Origin: a virus
Length of the DNA stretch: 64,000 bases
Strand: one strand, 5' to 3'
Virus record (IMG/VR): IMGVR_UViG_3300044997_001199
Coordinates: 124,001 to 188,000 of that record
In this document: one piece after another, positions 14,319 through 28,943 of the stretch
Layout of the letters: the number at the start of each line of letters is the position of its first letter
How positions within the stretch are numbered: position 1 is the stretch's first letter
Position numbers and translations under genes: made by a program
The notes under the pieces: generated by a model
Database searches by the model: none
Seen by the model: the letters and a program-made list of their open reading frames with translations, nothing else
What the model was told of the DNA's origin: nothing

Positions 14319-14540
14319 TCAGACTGCCACGGCCTGTTTGATGGCCGAGCCAAACGCACGAGCTGCTGTGATCTGTGCGCGGATCAGCTCACATCCTGCG
14401 GCATTGATGTTTTCGGCTGCGGTGCGTACACGTTCGTCGGTGATAAGACCAGCAAAGGTCTTGTTGTTTTTTTCCACAGCATCGATCACTGTGTTGACAT
14501 CAAACATCTTGGTAATATCAAACTTGGTATAATCAACCAT
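14319..14540 (-). CDS. Small phasin-like protein
   Basis: 73 residues, mostly one long amphipathic helix pair: FDITKMFDVNTVIDAVEKNN followed by AAENINAAGCELIRAQITAARAFG. The KFD..K.F/NINA.. pattern resembles the phasin family that coats polyhydroxyalkanoate granules, but the protein is half the normal size, so it could be an unrelated helical protein. It has AAGGAG, a late promoter and the same 5' hairpin as dnaK and hsp20, so it is probably expressed at high level late in infection. Confidence 0.6.
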   Translation of the reverse strand: MVDYTKFDITKMFDVNTVIDAVEKNNKTFAGLITDERVRTAAENINAAGCELIRAQITAARAFGSAIKQAVAV

Positions 14541-14577
14541 TTCAGTCTCCTTAAAATTAAGCGAGGTTCACTACAAC

Positions 14578-14601
14578 GAGACCTGCCCCATGCAGCATCT
14601 C
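14578..14601 (-). ncRNA. 5' leader hairpin shared with dnaK and hsp20 (copy 3)
   Basis: RNA reads GAGA-UG-CUGC-AUGGG-GCAG-G-UCUC. It keeps the outer stem, UG/G internal loop, inner stem and 5-nt loop of the dnaK and hsp20 leaders with different stem sequences. Confidence 0.5.
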
Positions 14602-14619
14602 ATGCTGTCAGTGTAACAG

Positions 14620-14627
14620 TATTTATT
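14620..14627 (-). promoter_or_regulatory. Late promoter AATAAATA
   Basis: T4-type late promoter core about 80 bp upstream of the phasin-like gene. Confidence 0.6.
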
Positions 14628-14648
14628 GTGCAATGCAACAAATTAGAT

Positions 14649-15413
14649 TTATTTTGGAGAAATCAAATCTGCGGACTGTGTCCAAGTCACGATTTCCCAA
14701 CGACCGTCCCAGTGTTCTACCAAGGCAGTCATTGACTCAACCCAGTCGCCGTCGTTCATGTAGATTACACCATCAATTTCTTTGATTTCTGCGTTGTGTA
14801 TGTGCCCACAGATCACGCCGTCAAACCCTCGCTTTTTACAGTAGCCGGCAAGATTCTTTTCAAACTGAAAAATAAAATCTATAGATTTTTTAACTCGTGT
14901 TTTGAGATATTTGCTTAAACTCCAGTAACCCAGTCCTAGTCTGCGTCTAAGAGCATTGAATCTACTGTTTAAGTCTAGCACAAAATCATACATCTTGTCA
15001 CCTAAAAAGGACAACCACGGGGCTAAACGAGTGATTCCGTCAAAAAGATCTCCATGAGTGACCAGATAATGTTTTCCGTCTAAACCAATGTGCTCGGTCT
15101 GATTGAAAACTTCAATCATACCAAAACCAATACCGTATGGAATCAATGGGCGAAGAAACTCATCGTGATTGCCTGCTACATACACAACGCGGGTTCCACG
15201 CTTGGCATGTCCCATTATACGTCTTACAACATTGGTATGGCTTTGTTTCCAGCGCCACTTGTTTTGTTGAATTTTCCACGCATCAATGATGTCACCAACA
15301 AGATAAAGTGTTTCACAGGTATTATGTTTGAGAAAATTATTTAACTGCTCTGCTCTGCAGTCGCGGGTTCCAAGATGTACATCACTGATGAATATGGCGC
15401 GATAGGTGGTCAC
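14649..15413 (-). CDS. LpxH-like metallophosphoesterase
   Basis: About 254 residues of calcineurin-like phosphoesterase fold: SDVHLGT, GDIIDAW, GNHDE, THGD and GHIH carry the five metal-binding motifs. The nearest recognised group is the UDP-2,3-diacylglucosamine pyrophosphatase (LpxH)-like family of lipid A biosynthesis, though substrate cannot be fixed. GTG at 15413 gives the usual start VTTYRAIFISDVHLG; ATG at 15434 adds a short MRRVKYL. TAAATA at 15418-15423 lies only four bases before the GTG, so the late message may be nearly leaderless. The codons are more AT-rich than in the neighbours, suggesting recent acquisition. Confidence 0.85.
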   Translation of the reverse strand: MTTYRAIFISDVHLGTRDCRAEQLNNFLKHNTCETLYLVGDIIDAWKIQQNKWRWKQSHTNVVRRIMGHAKRGTRVVYVAGNHDEFLRPLIPYGIGFGMIEVFNQTEHIGLDGKHYLVTHGDLFDGITRLAPWLSFLGDKMYDFVLDLNSRFNALRRRLGLGYWSLSKYLKTRVKKSIDFIFQFEKNLAGYCKKRGFDGVICGHIHNAEIKEIDGVIYMNDGDWVESMTALVEHWDGRWEIVTWTQSADLISPK

Positions 15414-15417
15414 TAGG

Positions 15418-15423
15418 TATTTA
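15418..15423 (-). promoter_or_regulatory. Late promoter core TAAATA
   Basis: TTAAATACC directly abutting the GTG start of the LpxH-like gene. It could be chance, but the same tight spacing recurs at 23892, 30429 and 45382. Confidence 0.35.
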
Positions 15424-15445
15424 ACCCGGCGCATTGTCCTGTTCT

Positions 15446-16216
15446 CTATGCACAATAACGTTCCAACGCAGCGTCGGTCTTGGTCATGTCTGCGCAGGTC
15501 CAGGTCTGGTAACTGTGTTTGAGATGCGGTGGCATGGGTATTTCTTTCACTGGAACACCAAAACTGTTGGCCACTTGACGGAAACTCAGCGTGGTACCGG
15601 TGCCAATGTTGAAAATACCACTTTCTGGTACGGCAAAAAATCGTTGATGACAGCGAACCACTTCTTCCACAGGCACAAAATCGCGCTGATAGGCATGGCT
15701 ATTTTCAAACACCGTGACCTCGCCGTGTTGCTCTGCCTGCAGGCGGAACTGTGTGAACGGACTGGCCTGCGACCCTTTGTGCTCTTCGCCGGACCCATAC
15801 ACATTGAAATATCGGAATCCTTGTACATGGATGTTGGGTGCAGGATCGCATTCGATGTGCCGCTCCACGATGTATTTGGTCCATGCATAGGGAGTGCGTG
15901 GATCGGGCGGAGCAGTTTCTGAAAAATTGGTCCCCGGTCCATACACACTGGCCGATGATGCCCATTGGAGATTTACACCATGCTTGCGACACTGATTGTA
16001 TAACCACAGTGTGAAATCCACATTCTGTCGCATGATCTGTTCCACATCAGCAAAGGTAGTGCTGGAAATGGCACCCACATGTATGACCCAATCCAGACCG
16101 GCCACTGTGGGCAAGGGTTCTCCCCATTCAAAGGTCGACACGTCGTGGCTCGAGCTCAATGCAGCGACAAGATGCGAGCCTATGAATCCTCGATGACCGG
16201 TAACCAAGATTTTCAC
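15446..16216 (-). CDS. NAD-dependent epimerase, HldD-like (ADP-heptose 6-epimerase family)
   Basis: 256 residues. Rossmann motif GHRGFIG at 7-13, catalytic Tyr110/Lys114 (YAWTK), and the HldD-like stretches RYFNVYG..EEHKGSQAS and IFNIGTGTTLSF. HldD makes the ADP-L-glycero-D-manno-heptose used in LPS inner core. Adjacent LpxH-like, phosphomannomutase and UDP-sugar dehydrogenase genes support a role in altering cell-surface sugars, perhaps to exclude other phages. It overlaps the UV endonuclease gene by four nucleotides (ATGA). Confidence 0.85.
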   Translation of the reverse strand: MKILVTGHRGFIGSHLVAALSSSHDVSTFEWGEPLPTVAGLDWVIHVGAISSTTFADVEQIMRQNVDFTLWLYNQCRKHGVNLQWASSASVYGPGTNFSETAPPDPRTPYAWTKYIVERHIECDPAPNIHVQGFRYFNVYGSGEEHKGSQASPFTQFRLQAEQHGEVTVFENSHAYQRDFVPVEEVVRCHQRFFAVPESGIFNIGTGTTLSFRQVANSFGVPVKEIPMPPHLKHSYQTWTCADMTKTDAALERYCA

Positions 16217-17244
16217 GATGTCACTGCCTCCCGTAAGTTAGACACAAAACCATCACGTGCGAGATTTTTGCCCTTGGCTTCGCACTGGATGTCGAATTCA
16301 TCGCTGAACGTGCCGGCCCAGGCATTCACGGCGTGATTCCAATAGAAATCTGAATGAGCTCGGAGTTTCTGCTTGTGGAATCCTCGCTCCAGCAGCCCGG
16401 CAAGATCAGGGCGGGTGTGGATATCATGCCCCACCAATAGGTCTTCTCGACTAACGCTATAGTGAACTACAGGGCGAACACCACGCCAAGACTCAATGAC
16501 GTGCTGCGTCCTAGGGTCTTTGGGCTCAATATATTCGCCGGTGCGCACCCAATGGTGATGAATGTCCAACACAAGGGCCACATGATCAGCCACAAGCAAA
16601 GTAAGGTCCAGACCATTTGAAATTTCGTCGTTCTCAATGGTGATTAGATTCCGGGCCTCGGGGCTGAGACGCCCCAGAGTACGAAGGAATTTGTCAGGCC
16701 CACCTTTGCCCGACAAATGCACATTGATCTTGAATCCTGAATCATGCCACGCGGCACCATAACCCATCCAGCGCGCCATGTCTGCATGATATTCAAATTC
16801 ATCAATGCTTCTATTTACAATATCGTCGTTCTCTGATGCAAGAACACAGAACTGTCCAGGATGGAAACTCAGTCTCACGCCCAGTTCACGCGCACGGTCG
16901 CCAATGGGTTGGAATATGGTCTCAAGGTGGTGCTGAATGTCGGCCTGCTGCCACCAGTCCTGCCAGGACGCCTCGGTGTAGCCCTGCAACATTTCAGACC
17001 CAAGACGCACCATGCGGAATTCTGGCTGCAGTGAGCCCACACATTCTACCATGCGCAGAGCTGCTGCGGCATTGTGATTCATGATGTCCCACTGGCGTTG
17101 CTCGGCTAGATCTGCATGCTCGCGCAGCCAACGCATGGTAGTGGAGCGACCATTGAGTTCACGATTGGCGGCATTGACCTTCATGCCGCCACATTCAGCA
17201 GGATCTTCCAACCACTTGCAACAAAACCCAAAACGTCCTGTCAT
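16213..17244 (-). CDS. uvsE: UV damage endonuclease (UvsE/UvdE family)
   Basis: 343 residues with the UVDE TIM-barrel signatures: RFGFCCKW, STTMRWL, FRMVRLGSEM, RLSFHPGQFCVLAS, NVHLSGKGG, ITIENDE, LVLDIHHHWV and PVVHYS. The enzyme nicks DNA 5' to pyrimidine dimers and other lesions. The conserved His, Glu and Asp metal ligands are all in place. Phage copies of UV repair enzymes are common in sunlit waters (T4 uses DenV). It is coupled to the epimerase downstream, and the gene upstream overlaps its start. Confidence 0.95.
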   Translation of the reverse strand: MTGRFGFCCKWLEDPAECGGMKVNAANRELNGRSTTMRWLREHADLAEQRQWDIMNHNAAAALRMVECVGSLQPEFRMVRLGSEMLQGYTEASWQDWWQQADIQHHLETIFQPIGDRARELGVRLSFHPGQFCVLASENDDIVNRSIDEFEYHADMARWMGYGAAWHDSGFKINVHLSGKGGPDKFLRTLGRLSPEARNLITIENDEISNGLDLTLLVADHVALVLDIHHHWVRTGEYIEPKDPRTQHVIESWRGVRPVVHYSVSREDLLVGHDIHTRPDLAGLLERGFHKQKLRAHSDFYWNHAVNAWAGTFSDEFDIQCEAKGKNLARDGFVSNLREAVTS

Positions 17245-17489
17245 TGACTACCCCATCGAAGTTGAAACCATACCGCATGTTCCTGTTCGCAAAACCAAAC
17301 CAATTTTTTCATAGAACCATCTACCAAGTCAAACGTTTCAACATAGGGTATGTTGTTGTTGAACAGCCAAACAAAGGCCGGTACGGAAATGCCGGTTATT
17401 TCCACACTGTGGCGATAGTCATCTGCATTATATATGCACTGTAGTTGGCGTCTATGCTTCACGCGGCACTGTCTTTGGTCAGAGCACAC
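17241..17489 (-). CDS. Conserved small phage protein (VWLFNNNIPY family)
   Basis: Up to 82 residues. LQCIYNADDYRHSVEITG, VWLFNNNIPYVETFDLVDGSMKK and VWFCEQEHAVWFQLRW are well conserved in T4-like phages, but no function is known. Starts are poor: GTG at 17489 or GTG at 17462 (VKHRRQLQ), neither with a good ribosome site. Its stop overlaps the UV endonuclease start (ATGA). Confidence 0.7.
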   Translation of the reverse strand: MCSDQRQCRVKHRRQLQCIYNADDYRHSVEITGISVPAFVWLFNNNIPYVETFDLVDGSMKKLVWFCEQEHAVWFQLRWGSQ

Positions 17490-17506
17490 ACGGTTTGAGA
17501 ATGTTC

Positions 17507-17920
17507 CTATGCCAAGCGTACTGACTCGTGTTGCATGAGTTTATTGGCTTCCTGTCGCATGGCCTGCACCCCAGATTCAGCAATGTCACGGATGCTAGCA
17601 CGAGGCAACGTGCGAACACGGTCTCCCATACCTCAATGAGATTGAGCCGGACGTTGAGTTCAGACTGCGGCATCTCACGACCATCGGGCGGCTTCACTGC
17701 GCCGGCCTCTGCCAGAGCCTGGCAGATAGCATCTTCGGCCACACGGCCAGCAGCAATCATGGCAGCATAGTTTGGATCAATACAGTGCCTGCGACTCTGC
17801 CCCACCCGGGTAGCACATGACCAGGTGTGTGCCTTGGGGAAATGAGTCAAGCAGTTCTTGGTCATATTCATTGACAGGTACATATCTGCGTCCTCTCTTG
17901 CGATAAAACGTTTCTTTCAT
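17507..17920 (-). pseudogene. Conserved phage protein split by two frameshifts
   Basis: Frame A from ATG 17920 encodes KETFYRKRGRRYVPVNEYD...SFPQGTHLVMCYPGG, the start of a common T4-like phage protein. After a GGGG run near 17797 the homology continues in a second frame (CIDPNYAAMIAAGRVAEDAICQAL), and near 17610 it moves back into a third frame (LPRASIRDIAESGVQAMRQ...HESVRLA) up to a TAG at 17507-17509. So the protein is complete only if one extra G and one missing base are corrected. This may be a real mutation or two sequencing errors. The start overlaps the phosphomannomutase stop. Confidence 0.7.
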
Positions 17921-18615
17921 GCTAGATCTCGCAACAGTTGCCAGGTGTGGCGCCAGTCTCTGACAGCATAACACTGGCCGCGTGCCTGGTCAACGATGGC
18001 GTCAGCCAAGGGTCGATCGTTGCCCATGGCATCTATGCGATCGCCAAAAAACGCTACGTCGTCGGAGATCCAGCGCAAGACCTGTGACTTGTCGGTTCCG
18101 CGGCGGAAGATGTCGATAGAGATTTCGCCGCCCACCACGGCGTGTACGTCGGGCCAGCCGCGATTGATTTCCTGTGCAATGACAGCACGCTCACCGTGCA
18201 ATTGATCCCAACGATAGTAGTGGTCTCGATCCCAGGCCGTGGCACGACGTCCTACCACGCTGAAATTCAGCATGCCTGTGCGCTGTTCAAAGTGTAGGCC
18301 AGTACGGTGTCGATAGCCGCTGACACGTAAACGATTTTCTAGCCACGACCTGAGATCTCGGGGACACTGCCATTCGCTCTGGTGCACCAGTTGTCCCGCA
18401 CGATACACTGCATTGCCCGAACAGTTGAAACTGGTGTCCACGGTGTTCATGACCGCCTGGCCCAGCTGTTCCAGGGTCTTGCTATAGTCGCTGCCAGTGA
18501 CCAGACTCACGGTGTGTGCTCGACAAAACTCTCGAAACCAACCGCCAAATGCAGTGTCAATCACACCACGGCTGGGAGTAAGTGTGCCGTCAACATCAAA
18601 TAGATAGTGTGTCAT
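17917..18615 (-). CDS. HAD-family phosphomannomutase, eukaryotic PMM type
   Basis: 232 residues. The nucleophile motif is FDVDGTLT near the N-terminus, followed by the PMM-like cap (MLNFSVVGRRAT, YRWDQLHGERAVIAQEI), GGEISIDIFRRGTDKSQ and FFGDRID. This is the HAD phosphomannomutase group, which converts mannose-6-phosphate to mannose-1-phosphate for GDP-mannose; a related sugar phosphatase cannot be excluded. ATG 18615 is preferred (THYLFDVDGT); ATG 18624 is also possible. A strong sigma70-like promoter (18656-18684) starts this operon, which continues through the repair and epimerase genes. Confidence 0.85.
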   Translation of the reverse strand: MTHYLFDVDGTLTPSRGVIDTAFGGWFREFCRAHTVSLVTGSDYSKTLEQLGQAVMNTVDTSFNCSGNAVYRAGQLVHQSEWQCPRDLRSWLENRLRVSGYRHRTGLHFEQRTGMLNFSVVGRRATAWDRDHYYRWDQLHGERAVIAQEINRGWPDVHAVVGGEISIDIFRRGTDKSQVLRWISDDVAFFGDRIDAMGNDRPLADAIVDQARGQCYAVRDWRHTWQLLRDLA

Positions 18616-18655
18616 TGGTATCATTAATTCTTAGATAACAATCTTTTTCCCTTTT

Positions 18656-18684
18656 ATTTTACAGCGAAAAAACATTCAGGTCAA
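18656..18684 (-). promoter_or_regulatory. Sigma70-like early promoter TTGACC-N17-TAAAAT
   Basis: TTGACC at 18684-18679 and TAAAAT at 18661-18656, 17 bp spacer, heading the phosphomannomutase operon. Confidence 0.75.
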
Positions 18685-18876
18685 TGGTTTGTTTTCAACC
18701 ATTTGTAATCTATGGTCAACAAAATGCCAACCGTCACTTGAAAGAAATAGGTTACAAGACTTACAACGATATATGAATTACAAACAGAACTGATTAAAGA
18801 TCTAAAAGAAAAACCAAAACAAAACAATCAGAGCCCGATATTAGGATTCGAATATTTTGGTAGGCCCGAAGGGTAA
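18684..18876 (+). pseudogene. Decayed remnant of a glycosyltransferase-like gene
   Basis: Plus-strand frame 18684-18776 reads CFQPFVIYGQQNANRHLKE then IGYKTYNDI, stop; after a frame change the text goes on as YELQTELIKDLKEKPKQ...FEYFGRPEG to a TAA at 18874-18876. PFVIYG...LKEIGYKT matches the pattern KPFLLAATPYSLRYLRSYGFLT of the glycosyltransferase-like gene at 22226. The remnant lacks most of the gene and shows one frameshift, so it is probably not functional. Confidence 0.45.
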
Positions 18877-18931
18877 CGCTCCCTCTTCTACGGTTTAAAA
18901 GACCGTTGCTTCACTTTAAAGCTTCAAGCCC
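18858..18931 (-). tRNA. tRNA-Lys(UUU) with divergent D and T loops
   Basis: Folds as a 74-nt cloverleaf: acceptor GGGCTTG/CGGGCCT with three G-U pairs, AA linker, D stem GCTT/AAGC, anticodon stem ACGGT/ACCGT with loop CTTTTAA (anticodon UUU), 4-nt variable loop, T stem GAGGG/CCCTT, discriminator A and an encoded CCA tail. The T loop is AGCGTTA instead of TTCGANN, and the D loop TAAAGTG lacks the GG pair, so the usual D-T loop contact is missing. It may be a degenerate tRNA, or a functional armless-type or mimic RNA. Confidence 0.6.
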
Positions 18932-18943
18932 ATCAAACATCGA

Positions 18944-19021
18944 TCAGGCCAAGGTCCAGTATGCCACGATGGCTATTACATAGATTACTACTGCATAAAC
19001 AATCTGTCTAGCGATATTCAT
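18944..19021 (-). CDS. 25-residue single-helix membrane peptide
   Basis: MNIARQIVYAVVIYVIAIVA followed by YWTLA: a short basic head and one transmembrane helix. TAGGAG lies seven nucleotides before ATG 19021, and a sigma70-like promoter is directly upstream, so expression is likely. Similar tiny membrane peptides occur in phage early regions; role unknown. Confidence 0.6.
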   Translation of the reverse strand: MNIARQIVYAVVIYVIAIVAYWTLA

Positions 19022-19044
19022 TGTTCACTCCTACCTGTGTTGCT

Positions 19045-19073
19045 ATTGTATGGCAGGTAGAATTTGCAGTCAA
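19045..19073 (-). promoter_or_regulatory. Sigma70-like early promoter TTGACT-N17-TACAAT
   Basis: TTGACT at 19073-19068, TACAAT at 19050-19045, 17 bp spacer, 24 bp before the small membrane peptide. Confidence 0.75.
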
Positions 19074-19089
19074 CTATTTCTAGACACAG

Positions 19090-19299
19090 TCATGTAAACC
19101 GCAAAGCGAATACCGTGGCGTCTTGACTGGTCTTGAAGTAAAACACTGTGCGGTCATAGTAGTAAACCGGATACCACTGACCTGCGAAAACTCCCAGGTT
19201 TTGTGCAAGCCATTGTTCTTGATGGTATGTGCCCATGTCAGACTCTTTGAGGTTTACAGTGACACTGTAGGGCCAACGTTCTTTATTCAGGGTTTTCAT
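19090..19299 (-). CDS. Conserved small phage protein (WPYSVTVNL family)
   Basis: 69 residues. WPYSVTVNLKESDMGTYHQE and the C-terminal VFYFKTSQDATVFALRF are a pattern found across T4-like phages; function unknown. ATG 19299 has GAGGT upstream. Confidence 0.75.
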   Translation of the reverse strand: MKTLNKERWPYSVTVNLKESDMGTYHQEQWLAQNLGVFAGQWYPVYYYDRTVFYFKTSQDATVFALRFT

Positions 19300-19369
19300 G
19301 TCTACCTCATAGCGAATAACACACGTTGCTTTTCGTCACGCACACGCCATACGTCATAACGAAGTAACT

Positions 19370-19567
19370 ATGATTGCTCTGTTTGACATATACTATATGT
19401 TCAAGCGTTGGCAAGATCAAGGTTGGGAAATGTCAACTGCTCGCGATGAAAAGACTGGCAAGTATGCCACGGGCCTTGACCAAGAACGACCACTCCGTTA
19501 CGTTAAAGGCTTAATTTATAGCTCTCACAGAGCCGTTGACAATTTTGTTAACGGCTGTGACAGTTAG
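19370..19567 (+). CDS. Small unknown protein on the plus strand
   Basis: 65 residues, MIALFDIYYMFKRWQDQGW...DEKTGKYATGLDQERPLRYVKGL. Composition looks coding and no minus-strand gene covers this stretch, but no ribosome site, promoter or homologue is obvious. Confidence 0.4.
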   Translation: MIALFDIYYMFKRWQDQGWEMSTARDEKTGKYATGLDQERPLRYVKGLIYSSHRAVDNFVNGCDS

Positions 19568-19570
19568 TGG

Positions 19571-20488
19571 TTAACCTTGTCGGTGCAGATCCAGGGTCAC
19601 ACAGTGGAAACCACCACCCAGGGTGCGGCTGTGTCGCAGTTCCATAGGAATGACATCAAGACCCTGCGCCTGTATCTGTTGTATCAAGTCGATCTGCATG
19701 TGATCCACGATCACAGTGTTGGGATCCACGGTGAGAGTGTTCATGCCGATCCATTTTGATGCATAGGGATATTGGTAAAAATCACGGGGCACACAGTCTT
19801 CCACCCAGATTTTGTCCCAGGATTTCAATACAGGAGGCAAGTTGTGTTCTGTGACTCTCGATGCATTGAGCAAGACCAGTCCTTCACGCAACGGACAGAT
19901 GGTCGAATCTATGTGTACCCCTGCATAGAAATCGCAGAGGTGTATGCGTATCTGTGGAAACTGTTCGCAAAGCCAATGATAGGCGGCCATGTTGCCGCTA
20001 GCACTGCGCAAAAACAACCAATGATCATTGAGACGACACACATTGGCTGCATCCAAGATCATACCTTGATCTCTGGGCATGATCCGAGTGCTGATCCCGG
20101 GTTGTGTCAAGAAGTCAAGACTCTGTATTTCCTGATCCCGACAAGGGTACATCATGGCAGTATCGACCACGACATCGCCTGCTATGATCACCCGGTCCCG
20201 TGGACAGTAGTTGTACATGCCCTGTGTGATCACAAAGTCTTTGTAGGCCGGACGTAGGACTTCGACGCCGGCATCAGTCAGCACAGCGATCAAGCGTTCG
20301 AGATCCTCCTCGGCTTCCATCTGAATCCACTCGGGTACCGGTCCAGACGGCGGCGGCGTCTGGGTCCAGGAAGTTTTGCTGGACTCCTGTGCAAACATCG
20401 GATCCTCTGCGGGCCAGTTGGCCCCCGAGGCTGATCCTACCACCACGGTGCGCAGGCGGTCCCATTCATTGTGGCTGTGTATTTTCAT
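19571..20488 (-). CDS. Amidinotransferase (arginine deiminase superfamily)
   Basis: 305 residues of the guanidino-group modifying fold. Catalytic Cys296 sits in GGGFHCVTLDLHR; His192 and Asp194 in AGVHIDSTICPLREG; and LDAANVCRL carries the conserved Asp146. Closest by pattern to glycine or inosamine amidinotransferases, which move an amidino group from arginine to an amine. In a phage it may modify a sugar or nucleotide; the neighbouring dehydrogenase and oxygenase genes favour a sugar. ATG 20488 overlaps the upstream stop as ATGA. Confidence 0.87.
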   Translation of the reverse strand: MKIHSHNEWDRLRTVVVGSASGANWPAEDPMFAQESSKTSWTQTPPPSGPVPEWIQMEAEEDLERLIAVLTDAGVEVLRPAYKDFVITQGMYNYCPRDRVIIAGDVVVDTAMMYPCRDQEIQSLDFLTQPGISTRIMPRDQGMILDAANVCRLNDHWLFLRSASGNMAAYHWLCEQFPQIRIHLCDFYAGVHIDSTICPLREGLVLLNASRVTEHNLPPVLKSWDKIWVEDCVPRDFYQYPYASKWIGMNTLTVDPNTVIVDHMQIDLIQQIQAQGLDVIPMELRHSRTLGGGFHCVTLDLHRQG

Positions 20489-20985
20489 TGTATGCCGGTA
20501 ATCTGTAGAGTGTATCGATCGGTCTGACCCACATTGGCAGCAAGATGAGGCACTGTGTTTTGCCAGACCACGGTATCGCCGGCCTGCCATTTGGTATAGG
20601 GGTGACCGTCGATTTCAAAATAATGACCGCTGGCCCAGGGTTCCAGGAAAATCACGGCTCGCCATATACGATCGGGGTCTGTGATGCCATGTATGTCGCG
20701 GAATCGTGCATAGGTGTCGCTGTGTGCGGGCAGCACTGTGCCTGGGCACATGCGATATACGGACCAGGAAAAACACTGCCAGTCAAACTGCTGCTGTACG
20801 GCTGGCATCCATTCGGGCTGACTCTGACGCATGTCATACATGTCGCCTGTGAATCGAGTCTGGGTATAACCCAGACTTCGCCACAATTTAACCGATTCGG
20901 AATCATTGAATGGCTCGTTGCAGTAAGGCAGATCGCGATGATCTGTCCAGACCAACTCAGTGTGGGTGTAGTACCATTTAGGCAC
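20485..20985 (-). CDS. 2-oxoglutarate/Fe(II)-type oxygenase-like protein
   Basis: 166 residues. GTVLPAHSDTYARF gives a His-X-Asp pair, VPHLAANVG a distal His and RYTLQITG a C-terminal Arg, the metal and 2-oxoglutarate ligands of the aspartyl/asparaginyl beta-hydroxylase-like fold. HYFEIDGHPYTKWQAGDTVVW fits the double-stranded beta helix. The substrate is unknown. GTG at 20985 (VPKWYYTHTELVW) is preferred because the longer frame to 21018 reads through the end of the upstream gene; overlap is 8 nt. Confidence 0.75.
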   Translation of the reverse strand: MPKWYYTHTELVWTDHRDLPYCNEPFNDSESVKLWRSLGYTQTRFTGDMYDMRQSQPEWMPAVQQQFDWQCFSWSVYRMCPGTVLPAHSDTYARFRDIHGITDPDRIWRAVIFLEPWASGHYFEIDGHPYTKWQAGDTVVWQNTVPHLAANVGQTDRYTLQITGIQ

Positions 20986-22222
20986 GACGAGTGTTACCGT
21001 AGTGTACCACCTTGACATTGGGCAGATCCAACGACAAACGGCGCCACGGGTCCACTATCACGGACTCTGCAGGAATGTCACAGTAGGGATTGGTGTCGTC
21101 TTGCTCACCGGTGTATTCATAGGTAATCTTACGGTTGTGCGCCCATAGTATCACAGCTGGCTCCCTGAGATCAGAGACCACGTCAGTGGGGTCATCGGCC
21201 ATGGGGTCCAGATACACCACAGCATGGCCTAGCTCTCTTACATAGTGACCCACCAGAGTAGAATAACTGCCAATACAGTATTCCACGTCGGGCTTGTAGG
21301 CCTTGCCGTGGATCACGATGGGTACATTACCCATGCGATTGGCATCGGCCTGATCTACCAAGAACTTGGCCAGATTGCGTGCCTGGATTTCGCGAGCGTG
21401 CATGATGGTGTCAAACAGGTCATAGCCGATGTCATACTCCTGCGCCAGCCAACGCAGAGCAATGTTGTCACGTGGATGGCAAGCGCCGGCATCGCCCATG
21501 CCTGCGGTCATGTATTTGGGACCCATGATGCGCATGGTTGAATTGGCCAGGGCGTCGGTGACCACGTCCACATTGATGTTTCCAATGCGCAGTGCAAAAT
21601 CCTGGATCATGTTGGCCAGACCTACTTTGGCTGAGATAAAGGTGTTGTAGAAAATCTTGATGGCTTCGCATTCGTCCCAGGTACCTGTGACATAGCGCGG
21701 ATCATTGACCATGAGTGCACGATAGATATCAATCAGATCTTGCATCTCGGCAGGGTCGCCGGATTCCGATCCGATCATGACCATTTCAGGATTGATCATG
21801 TCCCATTTTACCGAACCCATGGCAATGAGATAGGGATTGTAAAGGAACTGATGTTGTGGATCCAGCAAGGTAGCAAAATGGCGTCGCGTGGTTCCCGGCA
21901 GCACAGTGGAAATCAAGACCACTCGCTTGGGCAATGTGGCATAACGATTGACATTGTTCAGGGCCGCCTTCACTGCATCGTGTCCAAAGTCACGAGGTTC
22001 CATGTGGCTGCTGGGCACTGATCCGTCGTATCCTTCCTCGTGCGGAGTGGGAACTGCAATGAAAATCCAATCGCTGTCGCGCACGGTTTCTTCGATGCCG
22101 CAGACTTTTACTAGGTCGCTGGACCTCGGGTAAATATCATATCCACGCACAGTGTACTTTTCTGCAAATACCTCGGCACAATCCATGCCCAACTTGCCCA
22201 ACCCAATAAAACCAATGTTCAT
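20978..22222 (-). CDS. UDP-glucose/GDP-mannose dehydrogenase family protein
   Basis: 414 residues: N-terminal Rossmann domain (IGFIGLGKLGMDCAEVFA), IAVPTP, STVLPGTTRR, then GMGDAGACHPRDNIAL with the catalytic Cys, and a C-terminal domain with IHGKAYKPDV. The family oxidises nucleotide sugars to uronic acids by two NAD-dependent steps. NAD synthetase encoded at 3 kb may support it. The start codon is three base pairs from that of the divergent glycosyltransferase-like gene. Confidence 0.87.
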   Translation of the reverse strand: MNIGFIGLGKLGMDCAEVFAEKYTVRGYDIYPRSSDLVKVCGIEETVRDSDWIFIAVPTPHEEGYDGSVPSSHMEPRDFGHDAVKAALNNVNRYATLPKRVVLISTVLPGTTRRHFATLLDPQHQFLYNPYLIAMGSVKWDMINPEMVMIGSESGDPAEMQDLIDIYRALMVNDPRYVTGTWDECEAIKIFYNTFISAKVGLANMIQDFALRIGNINVDVVTDALANSTMRIMGPKYMTAGMGDAGACHPRDNIALRWLAQEYDIGYDLFDTIMHAREIQARNLAKFLVDQADANRMGNVPIVIHGKAYKPDVEYCIGSYSTLVGHYVRELGHAVVYLDPMADDPTDVVSDLREPAVILWAHNRKITYEYTGEQDDTNPYCDIPAESVIVDPWRRLSLDLPNVKVVHYGNTRRA

Positions 22223-22225
22223 CTG

Positions 22226-23557
22226 ATGAATATTCCGTTAGAAAGATTGTATCATTATGTCAGCGATATTGCTGGTCCTGATGTAATAATTTATCGTTGG
22301 TCCTCTCACGGATCAAAAATTCTCTACGATCTCAGAGCACTGACCGATATCCTGTCGGGATCTCAACTTCAGTTCTATAGTTCCGATTTGGTCCAACATG
22401 TCGCGATTATAGCACATGATCAGGAACCATTGGATCTTTTGTACTATGATCGACAACATATTTGCGAACACTTTGCCAGGATTTTCGGGCTGGATCCACA
22501 GACGCTGCTGCAGGATGGATCAACCGCCGACATAAAAGACATCGTGTACCTGCACTTGCGATCCGTACTACATCCCAGTGTTCACCGACCCATTTTGTTG
22601 CATTCAGAAGTCGGCGGCCGCCAACTCAAGATCTATCAGCAGCTGGGCTACATACCGGCCTACTGGTGGTGTCATGCCGTGTTGGCCAGAGATTGGTTTA
22701 GATATGCTCAGTGCGATCCACAGTTAAAGCACCGTCCGGCACAATGGCACAAAGATTTTTTAATCTACTGTAGATCCTGGACCGGAACCAGAAAATATCG
22801 CCTAGCATTTTTTGAGATGTTGGCCGATGAACAATTGTCGGACTACTGCCAGGCATCACTGGCCTCACATGATCAAGGATTTCACTATCTCGACATTGGT
22901 GTTCGCGACCCTGATCTAGCAGTGCAAAGAACCGATCTGGACCAGATATTCCGATCGTCTGGGATGGGTCCCGCGGCCAGTGCAGACTACGACAATCAGG
23001 ACTATGCTGCTGCAGCACTGGAAATAGTTTTAGAAACAGTGTTTGACGATGATCGCCAACATCTTACCGAAAAAACCCTGCGTCCCATTGCCTGCGGCAA
23101 ACCATTTTTGCTGGCTGCCACTCCCTATAGCTTGCGATATCTACGCAGTTATGGTTTTCTGACCTTTGCACCATTGATCGACGAAAGCTATGATGAGATC
23201 ACTGATACCAAACAACGTCTCCGGGCCTTGGTCAAAGAAATGCGACGCATTGCCAATTTATCAAGACAACAAAAACAGATCTTGTACCAAGAACTACATC
23301 AACGCGCACAGATCAATCAAAAACATTTTTTTTCTGAGGATTTTTATCAGCAAGTGACTCAAGAACTCAGTTGCAATGTCAAGACTGCCGTGGAACAATC
23401 GAGATCACAAGTGTCGCTGGCCTGGATCGAACAACGTCTGCGCGTGGCCAATCGGTGGAACGACCTTGGACTCTCAGAATGCCAGTCTCTCTATGCCTGG
23501 ACGGTGGCCAACATACAAGTTTCGAGATCAGGAACAGATACCAACCCATCCCATTGA
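22226..23557 (+). CDS. Glycosyltransferase-like phage protein
   Basis: 443 residues. The C-terminal part has LETVFDDDRQHLTEKTLRPI then ACGKPFLLAATPYSLRYLRS and DESYDE, a set found in a large family of phage proteins resembling fucosyl- or exostosin-type glycosyltransferases. The N-terminal half is less typical. It probably modifies surface glycans, in line with the neighbouring sugar-nucleotide genes. ATG 22226 lies back to back with the dehydrogenase start. Its end overlaps the convergent gene by 67 nt. A related gene sits at 56443. Confidence 0.75.
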   Translation: MNIPLERLYHYVSDIAGPDVIIYRWSSHGSKILYDLRALTDILSGSQLQFYSSDLVQHVAIIAHDQEPLDLLYYDRQHICEHFARIFGLDPQTLLQDGSTADIKDIVYLHLRSVLHPSVHRPILLHSEVGGRQLKIYQQLGYIPAYWWCHAVLARDWFRYAQCDPQLKHRPAQWHKDFLIYCRSWTGTRKYRLAFFEMLADEQLSDYCQASLASHDQGFHYLDIGVRDPDLAVQRTDLDQIFRSSGMGPAASADYDNQDYAAAALEIVLETVFDDDRQHLTEKTLRPIACGKPFLLAATPYSLRYLRSYGFLTFAPLIDESYDEITDTKQRLRALVKEMRRIANLSRQQKQILYQELHQRAQINQKHFFSEDFYQQVTQELSCNVKTAVEQSRSQVSLAWIEQRLRVANRWNDLGLSECQSLYAWTVANIQVSRSGTDTNPSH

Positions 23558-23880
23558 CTGTTTTGGTTGGACTCTGTAGATTGTTGGTTGATACGTTGTA
23601 ACAATATTTCATAAAAACTGTCAACTTCTCCGTTCCATCGTCCGGCCAAGGATTCAATGGCACCACGGCAATAGTCCCAGTTGCCCTGACGATATTGTGT
23701 CATGAGATTGTGATGCAGATCGCGATAGGTGTCCAAGGTAACAAATTCTGTCAGCGGCACGTATTCTACCACACACCATGCTGTGGATCGGTGACCTTTT
23801 TTGTCTACAAAAGTGTCGAGTTCGAGCAAGGTATAACTGTCGGGTAATTGTGGTATTAGGTGCCCAAATATAATGTGCAT
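23491..23880 (-). CDS. Conserved phage protein of unknown function
   Basis: 129 residues. LLELDTFVDKKG...CVVEYVPLTEF, LHHNLMTQYRQGNWDYC and GRWNGEVDSFYEILLQR make a recurrent pattern in T4-like phages; function unknown. AAAAGGAAA precedes ATG 23880. The 3' end runs 67 nt into the convergent gene, so the two messages are antisense there. Confidence 0.7.
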   Translation of the reverse strand: MHIIFGHLIPQLPDSYTLLELDTFVDKKGHRSTAWCVVEYVPLTEFVTLDTYRDLHHNLMTQYRQGNWDYCRGAIESLAGRWNGEVDSFYEILLQRINQQSTESNQNSQWDGLVSVPDLETCMLATVQA

Positions 23881-23891
23881 GCGTTTTCCTT

Positions 23892-23897
23892 TTAAAT
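23892..23897 (+). promoter_or_regulatory. Late promoter core TAAATA (plus strand)
   Basis: TTAAATAAG ends seven bases before ATG 23905, so a T4-type start site would fall at or next to the start codon. Confidence 0.45.
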
Positions 23898-23904
23898 AAG
23901 TGTT

Positions 23905-24696
23905 ATGCCACTTGCATTTGATTTGATTTCTGATTTACACGTTGAAACATGGTCCAAGATATTTAATTGGACTGGTCAGGCCACCAGTCCATTTTGTGTG
24001 GTAGTTGGAGATGTGGCGCAGGACCGCAATGTTTTGATAAAAACGTTAACACACCTTGGCAGTTGTTATCAAGCAGTTTTTTACATCGATGGCAATGACG
24101 AGCATCGTGACTATTACGACAATCTCAGTTCCAGTTACAATGACCTAGCCGCAAAACTCAAACCCGTACCCAATCTGGTGTATCTACAGAACAACGTAGT
24201 GGTAATCGAGGGAGTGGCCATCCTGGGTACCAACGGTTGGTGGGCCTTTAATTTTGATCTCAGTGTCGATTCGGGGTCGTCCGTAGAACTTTGGCAGGAC
24301 GAAACCGGACACGATCTTGCAGCTTCTCAATATATTTCGGCCATGGCCCAGAACGATGCCAACTATCTTGTTCGCAGCGTCAAGCGTTTGCAAAAACGCT
24401 ATGATGTCCGTCACATCGTGGTAGCTACACATACTGTGCCGGCGACGCAATTGCTTGCCCACGACATCGAGTTGAAATCAACTCCCAAACTCAACTGCAT
24501 GGGCAATCGATATCTCGAAGAAGCACTGGACTGCGATACCGAAAAAAAAATACATACCTGGTGCTTTGGACACTATCACAGACCGATAGATCAGATCTAT
24601 CGACAAATACGGTTTGTTAACAACTGTCGCGGAAAAGAGAAAACCGACTATGCCACGTCGGTTTTCTATCCCAAACGGATCGTGGTAGAAAACTAA
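23905..24696 (+). CDS. Metallophosphoesterase
   Basis: 263 residues with calcineurin-like motifs SDLHVE, VVGDVAQD, GNDEHRD (usually GNHE, here N-D-E-H), VVATHTVP and FGHYH. The altered third motif suggests a changed metal site. Substrate unknown; cyclic nucleotide or phosphoester cleavage are both possible. No ribosome site is seen; the start is directly after a TAAATA late-type promoter. The end meets the convergent clpS gene. Confidence 0.8.
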   Translation: MPLAFDLISDLHVETWSKIFNWTGQATSPFCVVVGDVAQDRNVLIKTLTHLGSCYQAVFYIDGNDEHRDYYDNLSSSYNDLAAKLKPVPNLVYLQNNVVVIEGVAILGTNGWWAFNFDLSVDSGSSVELWQDETGHDLAASQYISAMAQNDANYLVRSVKRLQKRYDVRHIVVATHTVPATQLLAHDIELKSTPKLNCMGNRYLEEALDCDTEKKIHTWCFGHYHRPIDQIYRQIRFVNNCRGKEKTDYATSVFYPKRIVVEN

Positions 24697-24998
24697 TCAG
24701 TGGATTCGGGTTCCAGTTTGATCTGCAAAGGGTAGCTCTGTTCTCTGGCACTGAGCGTGACTTCGATGCCTTTTTGTTCGGCAATCTCATAGGGCAACAC
24801 CGCGACCACGGCTGATCCAGACTCGTGAATGTCCAGAGTGATTTCTTTGGCTAGATTCACACTGTAATCAAAGTACTCTACTAGCGATTCAATCACAAAC
24901 TCCATGCTAGTGGCATTGTCATTGAGATAAATTACCCGATACATGGGGGGTTCAGTGACTTTTTCGTTGATACGAGTGCGGAATTCAATCTGTGACAT
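24693..24998 (-). CDS. clpS: ClpS N-end rule adaptor
   Basis: 101 residues. YRVIYLNDNATSMEFVIESL matches the ligand-binding loop of ClpS (NDxxT, MEFV), followed by IHESGSAVVAVLPYEIAEQKG and a C-terminal ARE..YPLQ segment. ClpS brings N-degron substrates to ClpA in bacteria; here the only unfoldase coded is ClpX, so it may act through host ClpA or redirect it. AAGGA precedes ATG 24998, and a 25-bp palindrome lies in the leader. Confidence 0.88.
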   Translation of the reverse strand: MSQIEFRTRINEKVTEPPMYRVIYLNDNATSMEFVIESLVEYFDYSVNLAKEITLDIHESGSAVVAVLPYEIAEQKGIEVTLSAREQSYPLQIKLEPESTD

Positions 24999-25017
24999 TT
25001 TATAATCCTTGTATATA

Positions 25018-25042
25018 CAGTGGCGGACACTGTCCGCCACTG
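25018..25042. repeat. 25-bp perfect palindrome in the clpS leader
   Basis: CAGTGGCGGACA-C-TGTCCGCCACTG, arms of 12 bp with a single central base, between the late promoter and the clpS ribosome site. No T run follows, so it is an operator or 5' mRNA hairpin rather than a terminator. Confidence 0.8.
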
Positions 25043-25048
25043 TATTTA
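25043..25048 (-). promoter_or_regulatory. Late promoter core TAAATA for clpS
   Basis: TTAAATACAG between the hsp20 stop and the palindrome upstream of clpS. Confidence 0.55.
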
Positions 25049-25059
25049 ACAAAACACTG

Positions 25060-25497
25060 TCAAGAAGTGTAGGTAATTGCGATGCTCTTGGGTTTGGCCG
25101 ACTCAGGAACCAGGCGTTCCAATTGGATGGTCAAGATACCATCTCGGACCACCGCGGCCTTGATTTCAACATGGTCTGCCAGCATGAAACAACGAGAAAA
25201 CTTGCGAGTCGATATTCCCTTGTGCAAATATTCAACTCCGACCGATTCGGTTTTCTTTTCACCGGTCACTGTGAGTTCACCGTTGTGGAATGTGACATCA
25301 ATTTCGCCTTGACTGAATCCGGCCGCGGCCAGGCGGATTTCATAGGTTTCCTCTCCGGTCTTGACCACATCGTGCGGTGGATAGTTGCCAACCTGAGATG
25401 AATGCTCAAACTGGTCTAGGATACGGTCAAACAAACGATCCACGCCCACGGTGTGACGATAGAAAGGGGTCAAGTCTAATGCAGTAAGTTTTGTCAT
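25060..25497 (-). CDS. Hsp20 small heat shock protein (IbpA-like)
   Basis: 145 residues. Alpha-crystallin domain with NYPPHDVVKTGEETYEIRLA, AAGFSQGEIDVTFHNGELTV, the YLHKGISTRKFSRCF dimer strand and ILTIQLERLVPESAKPK. It is IbpA-like and should hold unfolded proteins for DnaK, which is encoded next to it. ATG 25497 has AAAAGGAGA. It has its own TATAAATA promoter and shares a 5' hairpin with dnaK. T4-like phages of marine bacteria often carry Hsp20. Confidence 0.94.
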   Translation of the reverse strand: MTKLTALDLTPFYRHTVGVDRLFDRILDQFEHSSQVGNYPPHDVVKTGEETYEIRLAAAGFSQGEIDVTFHNGELTVTGEKKTESVGVEYLHKGISTRKFSRCFMLADHVEIKAAVVRDGILTIQLERLVPESAKPKSIAITYTS

Positions 25498-25527
25498 GAT
25501 AATCTCCTTTTAAGCAAGTATGACAAC

Positions 25528-25553
25528 AGTAGACCCGGAAATCGGCATCTACT
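25528..25553 (-). ncRNA. 5' leader hairpin shared with dnaK and phasin-like gene (copy 1)
   Basis: RNA reads AGUAGA-UG-CCG-AUUUC-CGG-G-UCUACU. Both stems differ from those of dnaK but stay paired. It starts four bases after TATAAATA, so it is at the 5' end of the message. Confidence 0.6.
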
Positions 25554-25557
25554 AGGA

Positions 25558-25565
25558 TATTTATA
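25558..25565 (-). promoter_or_regulatory. T4-type late promoter TATAAATA for hsp20
   Basis: Exact TATAAATA on the minus strand, overlapping the end of dnaK and 61 bp before the Hsp20 start. Confidence 0.75.
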
Positions 25566-27423
25566 CTACTTCCGTGAAGTCACTGTCAACCACAGTTTGC
25601 TCAGCAGCACCGCGTTGGCGTGCTTCGTGCAGTGCTGTGAGTTTTCCAGCGAGTTCTGTGAGTGCGGTTTTCATGGCTTCCACATCGTCTCCCTTGCCTG
25701 CGTTTTCGCAGTCAGTAAGCACCTGGAGGATTTCTGCATGTTGTTTGGACGTGAGATCACTTTCCAGTTCCTTGAGATCTGCTCTTGCCGAATGTGTCAT
25801 GCTGTCGATCTGATTGCGAGTTTCAATTAGCTCTCTCTGGCGGCGATCCACGTCAGCATTGGCCTCGGCGTCCTGCACCATCTTCTGGATCTCCTCCTCA
25901 GAGAGGCCCGAGTTGGCTCGGATGGTGATATTGTTCTTCTTGCCGGTGGCCCGGTCTTGAGCTGACACATGCATGATACCATTGGTATCGATATCCAGTG
26001 TGACTTCGATCTGTGGTATGCCGCGGCGCGCAGGTGCGATGCCTTCGAGATTGAACTCTCCTAACAATTTGTTGTATTGGAATAGTTCACGTTCGCCCTG
26101 CGCTACCTTGATGGTCACTGCGGGCTGATTGTCCTCGGCTGTGCTGAAAGTTTGACTGTGCTTGGCAGGAATAGTAGTGTTCTTGTTGATCAGCTTGGTA
26201 AACACTCCTCCCTGTGTTTCAATACCCAGACTCAGCGGAATCACGTCCAGCAGCAGCACATCTGTGCGATCGCCACTCAGCACTGCGCCCTGAATCGCAG
26301 CACCCACGGCCACTGCTTCGTCGGGGTTGACGTCCTTGCGCGGATCCCGACCGAAAAACGTCCGGACTGCCTCTTGCACCTTGGGCATGCGCGTCTGGCC
26401 ACCCACCAGTATCACATCGCTGATATCAGCAACAGCAATACCTGCATCTTTTACGGCCTGACGGCAGGGTTCGATAGAACGCTGGATAAGGTCCTCGACC
26501 ATGCCCTCAAACCGCGCACGAGTGATCTTTACCACCAGGTGCTTGGGGCCGGTCTGATCCATGGCGATATAGGGTTCGTTGACTTCGACCTGGGAACCAC
26601 TGCTCAGTTCGATTTTGGCACGTTCGGCTGCGGCCTTGATGCGCTGCAGAGCAATAGCATCTTTGGTAAGATCAATACCGGTTTGGTCGCGGAACTCGTT
26701 GCAGAGGAAGTCGATCAGGCGTTGGTCGAAGTCCTCACCGCCCAGGAATGTATCGCCATTGGTGGACAGAACTTCAAACTGATATTCGCCGTCGACGTCT
26801 GCGATCTCGATGATCGAGACGTCGAAGGTGCCGCCGCCGAGGTCATAGACGGCGATCTTGCGATCTCGCTGTTCGTTTTTGTCAAGTCCAAATGCCAAGG
26901 CTGCTGCAGTGGGCTCGTTGATGATGCGACGCACTTCTAGTCCAGCGATGCGGCCAGCGTCTTTGGTGGCCTGACGCTGCGCGTCGTTGAAGTAGGCCGG
27001 CACAGTGATCACGGCCTCGGTCACGGCATGTCCCAGATAATCCTCGGCAGCTTTCTTCATCTTACGTAACACTTCGGCCGAAATCTGCGGAGGGGCCTTG
27101 TTGTCGCCATTGACTGCGATCCATGCATCGCCGTTGTCGGCCCTCACAATATCGTAGGGCAGAGAGTTGATATCTCGTTGTACGGCCTTTTCTTCGAATC
27201 TTCGTCCGATCAGACGCTTGGCTGCATACACTGTGTTCTTGGGATTGGTAACAGCCTGGCGTTTAGCAGGTGCACCGACCAAGATTTCATCCGCGGTATA
27301 GGCCACAACAGAAGGAGTGGTTCTGGCTCCTTCGGCATTTTCGATAACTCTCGGGTTTCCATTTTCGATCACAGCCACGCAGGAATTGGTGGTGCCAAGA
27401 TCGATACCAATGATTTTGCTCAT
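25561..27423 (-). CDS. dnaK: DnaK (Hsp70) chaperone
   Basis: 620 residues of complete Hsp70: ATPase N-terminus ([15 protein letters not shown]), [23 protein letters not shown], the interdomain [18 protein letters not shown] linker and a substrate-binding domain with [12 protein letters not shown], followed by a shortened lid. DnaJ and GrpE are not in this window, so it may use host partners. ATG 27423 has AAGGAG. T4 itself has no DnaK; its presence with Hsp20, ClpX and ClpS suggests active control of protein folding in infection. Driven by TATAAATA at 27485. Confidence 0.97.
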
Positions 27424-27454
27424 AGTGTTCTCCTTGGTTAAGCAAGAATAAGTC

Positions 27455-27478
27455 GAGATCCCCGGAATGGGCAATCTC
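27455..27478 (-). ncRNA. 5' leader hairpin shared with hsp20 and phasin-like gene (copy 2)
   Basis: RNA reads GAGAU-UG-CCC-AUUCC-GGG-G-AUCUC, six bases after TATAAATA. Followed by CUUGCUUAA and the ribosome site, as in hsp20. Confidence 0.6.
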
Positions 27479-27484
27479 TAGTGC

Positions 27485-27492
27485 TATTTATA
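27485..27492 (-). promoter_or_regulatory. T4-type late promoter TATAAATA for dnaK
   Basis: Exact TATAAATA on the minus strand, 62 bp before the dnaK start codon. Confidence 0.75.
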
Positions 27493-27517
27493 GACAAAAT
27501 CTCAAATCAAGTCAAGC

Positions 27518-27742
27518 TCAATACAGGGTTTTAGGCAATTCTTGGCTAGCCAAATATCTACGCCAACGAGATTTGGCCGCGGATTTTTTGCGTTTTCTCA
27601 CCGAAGTGGGTTTTTCGTAGAACTCATATTTCCTGAGATCCATGAGTATGCCCGAAGTCTGGACCTTTTTTTTGAATTTACGCAGTGCTTTTTCAACGTT
27701 TCCGTCGTTGACAAACACTCTGCGACCATTTAATTCACTCAT
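27518..27742 (-). CDS. rpsU: Ribosomal protein bS21
   Basis: 74 residues: VEKALRKFKKKVQTSGILMDLRKYEFYEKPTSVRKRKK followed by a long basic tail is the bS21 pattern. bS21 sits near the anti-Shine-Dalgarno end of 16S rRNA and is needed for initiation; phage copies are thought to swap into host ribosomes and favour phage mRNA. IF-1 at 1 kb and the tRNA add to a translation set. ATG 27742 overlaps the end of clpX, so the two are coupled. Confidence 0.95.
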   Translation of the reverse strand: MSELNGRRVFVNDGNVEKALRKFKKKVQTSGILMDLRKYEFYEKPTSVRKRKKSAAKSRWRRYLASQELPKTLY

Positions 27743-28943
27743 TTACTTTTTTTAACTCCTTGGGTTCATACACCATGTCGGCGTCAATAACGACTTCGGT
27801 AATACCTTGCCGCACGTATTCTCGCAGTCGATACATGTGCGGTATTAGCACTCGCTCGAGTTCTCCGTGCAAGCCACGTGCTCCTGTTTTGTTTTTCATG
27901 GCATGCTCTACCACGAGATCCAGTGCCGCGGATGTGAATTCTAACTTGATCTGGTCTTGGTCAAACAGCCATTGATACTGTTCTATATAGTTATTTTTGA
28001 TGTTGAGCAGTATGGCCAAAAGATCCTGTTTGGTTAGTTCTCTCAAAGACACCCAGGTGGGGAATCTGCCTACAAATTCGGGGATCATGCCAAACTTTAC
28101 AATGTCATCAGGAGTGGTACTGTCAAGATACACACTGGGATCCTGTTCCACTGGAACGCTGAATCCAATACTGGTTCCCTTGATTCGAGATTTCACGAGA
28201 TTTTCGATGCCTACAAACGCACCGCCGGCGATAAACAAGATATCAGTGGTGTCGATTTCCACGGTGTCGTTCTGAGGATTCTTGCGACCCCCGTGAGGTA
28301 CGATTCTGCACTTGGTACCCTCCACCAATTTGAGAAGGCTTTGCTGTACACCCTCACCTGACACATCGCGAGTGATACTGATATTCTCCCCTCTGCGGGC
28401 TATTTTGTCTATTTCGTCAATAAAAACGATTCCGGTCTGGCAGCGCTCGATGTCATAATCGGCTGCTGCGTACAACCGCGAAATCACGCTTTCTACGTCA
28501 TCGCCTACATAACCGGCTTCGGTCAGACTGGTGGCATCTGCGATCACAAAAGGCACACCCAGGTACCGAGCCACTGTGCGCGCCAGCAGGGTTTTGCCCG
28601 ATCCCGTGGGTCCCAGCATCAGTATGTTGACTTTTTCAATTTCCGTGTTTTTTTCTTGATTGCGTATGCGCTTGTAGTGATTGGCAATGGCCACACTGAG
28701 AACGATTTTTGCGTCTTGCTGACCAATCACATACTGGTCGAGAAACTGTTTGATCTCCATTGGGTCCACATGCGATTCAATCATGGTCTGGCCCTGGGCT
28801 TGGTTAGATAACAGCAGTGTGTCACACAGAGTCACGCACTCGTTGCATATGGCAACCTTGTCTCCCACAATGAGTTTTCCGACTGCGTCCTTGTGCTTGC
28901 CACAAAAACTACAGTCGTTGGGTGTGAGATCAGTATCTGTCAT
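27735..28943 (-). CDS. clpX: ClpX unfoldase
   Basis: 402 residues. Zinc-binding domain with Cys11, Cys14, Cys33, Cys36; Walker A GPTGSGKT at 111-118; pore loop GYVG at 144-147; Walker B VFIDEID at 173-179; IGF at 259-261, the ClpP-contacting loop; and sensor-2 region [13 protein letters not shown]. All parts needed for ATP-driven unfolding and ClpP docking are present, so it can work with the phage ClpP. The start overlaps the upstream membrane protein by ATGA. Confidence 0.95.

Follow-up and report, generated by a model that had tools for sequence, protein, structure and literature searches.

What kind of RNA-level control, if any, do phages place in front of their own chaperone genes? The question is raised by a 64,000-nt stretch of viral DNA (the window; positions 124,001 to 188,000 of the 215,330-base IMG/VR record IMGVR_UViG_3300044997_001199), in which the minus-strand leaders of dnaK, hsp20 and orf73, a gene for a 73-amino-acid helical protein, share a hairpin placed ahead of the ribosome-binding site. 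A first-pass annotation of the window had taken this hairpin for an undescribed phage RNA element. We consider it probable (roughly 75%) that all three are RNA thermometers of the ROSE type, carried by a phage and serving as translational switches. This assessment is based on their structure and covariation, on their homology to the Pseudomonas ibpA thermometer and on their occurrence with chaperone genes.

Structure of the leaders

Reading of the sequences confirmed all three annotated hairpins (hairpin I) on the minus strand: GAGAUU-G-CCC(AUUCC)GGG-GAUCUC at 27455..27478 in the dnaK leader, AGUAGAU-G-CCG(AUUUC)CGG-GUCUACU at 25528..25553 in the hsp20 leader and AUGAGAU-G-CUGC(AUGGG)GCAG-GUCUCGU at 14578..14603 in the orf73 leader. 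All three were also matched by a covariance model (R1, see below), and the latter two by Rfam. Each consists of an outer stem, a U-G pair, a single bulged G, an inner stem led by a C-G pair, and a loop, and is followed on its 3' side by CUUGCUUAA or CUCGCUUAA and then by AAGGAG. What the first-pass annotation described as a kept UG/G internal loop is better read as a single bulged purine next to a pyrimidine-purine (Y-R) closing pair, which may be U-G, C-G or U-A. The AU with which the terminal loop begins is a coincidence of the three copies, relatives having UUCG, GNRA and other loops.

The earlier reading recognised hairpin I only and missed a second hairpin (hairpin II), which contains the Shine-Dalgarno (SD) sequence. 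The CUUGCUUAA that follows hairpin I is the ROSE anti-SD motif U(U/C)GCU, and the pairing of CUYGCUU against AAGGAG is the same as in hairpin II of Pseudomonas ibpA. In the window, hairpin II occupies minus-strand positions 27430..27446 before dnaK (CUUGCUUAACCAAGGAG, comprising anti-SD motif and SD), 25504..25518 before hsp20 (CUUGCUUAAAAGGAG) and 14547..14565 before orf73 (CUCGCUUAAUUUUAAGGAG). CUUGCU or CUCGCU precedes AAGGAG in all three window leaders and in nearly all relatives, with A replacing G in one group. In some leaders (L026, L080, L103, L105, L108, L119, L123 and others) an additional plain hairpin (GGGCAnnnUGCCC or GAGCAUAGUGCUC) separates hairpin I from hairpin II.

Recurrence and covariation

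With only three copies in the window, the resemblance might be put down to chance or to a general late-gene leader. The 215 kb genome as a whole contains the compound pattern of hairpin, CUUGCUUAA or CUCGCUUAA, and AAGGAG at three places only, and the reversed control pattern at none. A descriptor of shape alone (stem, UG, stem, loop, stem, G, stem) gave five matches in the window, three of them followed by CUYGCUUAA..AGGAG, against a mean of 1.7 matches, none with the downstream motif, in 30 Markov-shuffled windows.

R1 was built from 17 relatives in other phages, with the window left out. The dnaK, hsp20 and orf73 leaders nevertheless ranked first to third in their own genome, with 36.2 (27421-27478, dnaK), 24.6 and 16.5 bits, the next-best score being 10.6. 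A search of viral contigs for relatives of hsp20 and dnaK yielded 128 leaders, all of which, together with the three of the window, can be parsed as the bulged-purine hairpin. Across approximately 290 homologous leaders the structure is kept and the stem sequences have diverged; conservation in hairpin I is confined to the Y-R pair, the bulged purine and CC/GG, and does not extend to the loop or the stem sequence. The covariance-model search of this genome and related phages proposed in the first-pass annotation thus returned matches, with their stems paired.

The annotation's further claim, that the stems differ yet stay paired, is borne out by covariation: both sides change in six of the eight pairs of hairpin I (245 cells among 127 distinct aligned leaders), and the covariation score was 0.445, compared with 0.196 in shuffled and at most 0.106 in slid controls. 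Fitting the alignment to the structure works in favour of this score, a minor worry given the effect size and the independent parse.

Relationship to known thermometers

At a low threshold, Rfam model ROSE_3 (RF02523) matched the hsp20 leader at 25492-25554 (35.7 bits, E = 2.3e-6) and the orf73 leader at 14535-14604 (36.6 bits, E = 1.6e-6), in both cases over model positions 1-69 of 69; calculated for the virus's own genome, the E values were 9.5e-7 and 5.6e-7, respectively. The orf73 leader, taken alone, was not significant with R1 (E = 0.09). Weak ROSE_3 matches were also obtained for the hsp20 leaders of phages Melnitz (34.1 bits) and C48C1 (26.8 bits), and Rfam at its default threshold reported transfer RNAs (tRNAs) and transfer-messenger RNA (tmRNA) only. 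In a scan of bacterial genomes, the ROSE_3-type sequence proved to be the leader that hsp20 (ibpA) has in Pseudomonas and closely related genera.

ROSE is the most frequent known type of bacterial RNA thermometer (PMC3669281), and its elements are known from bacterial small heat-shock genes and, recently, from ABC transporters. In the Pseudomonas ibpA leader, studied by Krajewski and colleagues (PMC3669281), two hairpins are present, the second of which pairs the SD with U(U/C)GCU; heat melts hairpin II only, and deletion of bulged G39 locks it. The phage leaders likewise have two hairpins directly upstream of hsp20, the first with a U-G pair, a bulged G and CCG..CGG, the second with U(U/C)GCU set against AGGAG and a bulged G. 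They differ in that ATAAATA boxes take the place of a sigma-32 promoter upstream, that dnaK, groES and a small helical protein are preceded by the element as well, and that the two hairpins can both have A as the bulged base. Classical ROSE elements (Bradyrhizobium hspA, Escherichia coli and Salmonella ibpA) also mask the SD of heat-shock genes with U(U/C)GCU, but have three to four hairpins (PMC3669281), and by eye the Salmonella ibpA leader shows no clear bulged-purine hairpin I.

ROSE elements lie in the 5' untranslated region (UTR) of heat-shock genes, as do the elements of hsp20 and dnaK in the window and those of hsp20, dnaK and groES among the relatives. Judged from sequence, the leaders are best described as ROSE-like by architecture and not as formal ROSE_3 members by score. 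The notion of an undescribed element is not sustained, as the whole leader (hairpin, CUYGCUU and SD) matches the known ROSE_3/Pseudomonas ibpA thermometer. Its occurrence in phages, the extended gene set, the A/A variant and the support that covariation gives to hairpin I had no counterpart in the literature searched, although most subscription papers lay outside that search and absence there is not proof. The cIII thermosensor of phage lambda is a phage RNA involved in lysogeny control, whose structure has been proposed to respond to temperature; its structure and gene are unrelated to the chaperone leaders described here.

Genes preceded by the element

The dnaK gene (Hsp70) occupies 25561..27423 on the minus strand, with its true ATG at 27423 (a mechanically assigned TTG start at 27474 was rejected), and is followed by hsp20 (25060..25497), which encodes an IbpA-like small heat-shock protein. 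Both belong to a minus-strand proteostasis cluster at 24693-28943, in which they are adjacent to a clpX-like gene (27735-28943) for an AAA protein with a ClpX zinc finger and, after hsp20, to a small open reading frame (ORF) matching ATP-dependent-protease PHROGs (24693-25052). The orf73 gene (14319..14540, minus strand) stands apart from the cluster. No groES match was found in the virus's own record; a search of its genome with T4 Gp23 also gave no match, and neither did the controls of that search.

When R1 was applied to 100 loci (860 kb), 163 matches were obtained, of which 84 preceded hsp20, 71 dnaK, four groES and two a small helical protein; the remaining two fell at an apparently broken dnaK and at one weak place. 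These loci had been chosen by hsp20 or dnaK, and the unbiased test is therefore a scan of 24 whole phage records. Every examined match above ~19 bits in that scan precedes hsp20, dnaK, groES or a small helical protein, and matches below this level are noise. The additional matches above ~19 bits, read individually, lay ahead of phasin-like small ORFs (seven genomes), groES (two genomes) and dnaK (one genome). Restriction to a chaperone set, together with strong covariation and hundreds of homologues, makes a chance resemblance or a general late-gene leader barely credible; the whole-record scan and the covariation counts refute it.

Since the whole-record matches precede similar small ORFs, orf73 is a member of a recurrent phage gene type under the same leader. 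The family (window 14319-14540, L210-L214, L216 and L224) comprises helical proteins of 73-91 amino acids lacking a Pfam assignment, and its members were found only via the RNA model, tblastn of the orf73 protein against viral contigs having returned no relatives. The first-pass annotation had called the gene phasin-like. Pfam phasin models did not match the window protein and a fold search gave no significant match; one relative matched Phasin_2 at E = 0.028, below the cut-off. The resemblance is thus weak, and the label only suggestive. The small stress regulon proposed at the same time fared better, in that one covarying leader is common to dnaK, hsp20 and the small helical protein, which together form a small chaperone regulon.

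Distribution in phages and bacteria

The element was present before hsp20 in 20 of the 23 annotated phage records whose hsp20 leader was read, including all six of the first batch, and was not seen at hsp20 of the other three (P-HM2, SCTP-2 and HTVC115P). Carriers include Synechococcus and Prochlorococcus cyanophages (S-PM2, P-SSM4, S-CRM01, S-RSM4 and others), the pelagiphages Mosig and HTVC008M, methylophage Melnitz, C48C1, and the jumbo phages Cassandra (Pseudomonas) and Phosso (Sinorhizobium). Given that 507 phage records hold an hsp20 relative and only these 23 were read, the true number of phage carriers is probably large. A record labelled Pseudomonas phage Y7 (L361, OQ572409.1) was not counted: it is unverified and apparently chromosomal, its hsp20 leader has the ROSE_3 sequence of the Pseudomonas chromosome, and the DNA is probably that of the host. 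Two dnaK-bearing phage contigs, L088 (7083-7455) and L112 (5537-5927), also carry a betaproteobacterial permuted-type tmRNA and many tRNAs.

R1 did not match any of four Pseudomonas-group genomes. Among 274 genomes of the class to which one of them belongs it gave seven matches, and the sole real hsp20 leader was in L363, a 1.2 Mb bacterial genome with a phage-type element before its own hsp20. This case hints that bacteria and phages have exchanged hsp20 along with its leader.

Bulged-purine hairpins are typical repressor operators. The leader might accordingly be a site for another phage translational repressor, RegA-like and unrelated to heat, and regA does adjoin hsp20 in several cyanophages. 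We regard this as very doubtful, since the same element precedes bacterial hsp20 genes (in Pseudomonas and in L363) and is confined to chaperone-type genes.

Position relative to promoters

An ATAAATA box lies upstream in 79 of 100 distinct leaders, hairpin I starting at a modal distance of 4 nt after it; the late-promoter spacing of the element is constrained. In the window, late-promoter-like TATAAATA boxes lie on the minus strand at 27485..27492 for dnaK and at 25558..25565 for hsp20, the latter overlapping the 3' end of dnaK. The short distance from TATAAATA to the hairpin noted in the first-pass annotation holds for these two genes (3-6 nt). The orf73 leader instead has CAATAAATA (14620..14628, minus strand), a possible promoter box, 16 nt before the stem.

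If ATAAATA is a T4-type late promoter, hairpin I would lie at the mRNA end, near +1. This arrangement would favour a reading in which the role of hairpin I is to stabilise late mRNAs at their 5' end, the remainder being an ordinary leader. Nineteen hsp20 leaders, however, lack the box, and where examined their hairpin I is intercistronic between dnaK and hsp20, yet kept, in some cases containing the dnaK stop codon; a 5'-end role is therefore not the whole story. Stability, moreover, needs neither a conserved bulged purine nor a CUYGCUU motif nor restriction to chaperone genes. We judge stabilisation improbable as the explanation of the leader, and the persistence of hairpin I in the dnaK-hsp20 intercistronic region of many phages, far from mRNA 5' ends, weakens the earlier suggestion of mRNA stabilisation as a sole role. 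The other role then suggested, that of a protein site, may apply to hairpin I.

Mechanism and regulation

As a thermometer, the leader would work through two modules. Hairpin I (stem, Y-R pair, single bulged purine, CC..GG and loop) would be a stable 5'-side module. In hairpin II, CU[U/C]-G-CUU would pair imperfectly with AAGGAG, leaving one bulged purine and hiding the SD in cool or unstressed conditions. Heat or proteotoxic stress would then open hairpin II, and Hsp20, DnaK and the orf73 protein would be made when needed. We infer that hairpin II blocks translation in phage mRNA and that it is heat that opens it.

Several observations weigh against this interpretation. Every ROSE_3 match reported here falls below the 43-bit gathering cut-off of the model, and the dnaK leader of the window had no Rfam match. 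Hairpin II is devoid of double compensatory changes, because its SD side is fixed. The phage hairpin II has UU/AA in place of the inner G-C clamp (CUGA/UCAG) of Pseudomonas, and a lower set point or protein help would therefore be expected; where hosts of the relatives are named, they are mostly aquatic bacteria, which may be set beside a lower set point. Nearest-neighbour folding predicted clear SD masking and a thermometer-like curve for the dnaK leader only (SD open 0.02 at 20 °C and 0.19 at 42 °C), and across 131 leaders the SD was predicted to be more open than in controls with a shuffled 5' part. Neither calculation reproduced the proven Pseudomonas control and, since that leader failed in the same simulation, melting was not used as evidence.

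The weak hairpin II, by suggesting protein help, also bears on a different account, in which the leader is mainly a feedback-repression site for the phage's own Hsp20: free Hsp20 would repress hsp20, dnaK and the rest, misfolded protein would titrate Hsp20 away, and temperature would act as one of several inputs. E. coli IbpA represses its own mRNA via the 5' UTR, for which it needs Arg93 and an aromatic residue at position 34 (PMC10474464). In both systems a small heat-shock protein would act on a thermometer-type 5' UTR; the phage regulon differs in also taking in dnaK and others. An arginine equivalent to Arg93 is found in 20 of 22 aligned phage Hsp20 proteins, including that of the window, with K in C48C1 and Cassandra, and the non-repressing IbpB has Q in this column; the aromatic position is kept in the aligned phage proteins. 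Both residues sit in motifs general to small heat-shock proteins, however, and are not diagnostic.

The two hairpins, furthermore, show the same core (U-G, bulged purine, C-G, Y-R), and the bulged purine is identical in hairpins I and II in 290 of 294 leaders (G/G in 242, A/A in 48), with agreement between dnaK and hsp20 of one contig in 112 of 117 cases. On the Hsp20 tree, on which the hsp20 hairpins assigned to L138, L150 and L157 are probably parse artefacts, the shift of both bulges from G to A is accounted for by ~5 changes, three of them forced by supported branches. This is too few for significance, and the bulge link is thus suggestive but unproven. Overall, we consider feedback by Hsp20 a possible, tentative alternative. 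A bolder version, which we think rather unlikely, would make the element the operator of a viral proteostasis regulon: an Hsp20 dimer or oligomer would read the same bulged-purine motif in hairpins I and II, free Hsp20 would shut off all four kinds of gene (for Hsp20, DnaK, GroES and the small helical protein), and the repression would be relieved by protein left misfolded or unassembled during infection, giving a viral unfolded-protein response derived from ROSE RNA.

Significance

ROSE-type leaders precede hsp20 in cyanophages, pelagiphages and jumbo phages that have been widely studied; in environmental phages they are found ahead of dnaK, groES and a small protein as well. The ~290 diverged copies bear on the role of ROSE hairpin I, a question raised in the Pseudomonas work (PMC3669281), and the persistence of hairpin I away from mRNA 5' ends places a constraint on its function. 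Such viruses seem to have a small stress regulon of their own; if the thermometer interpretation is true, they would bring with them their own stress-responsive translation control, coordinating several chaperones by one RNA module.

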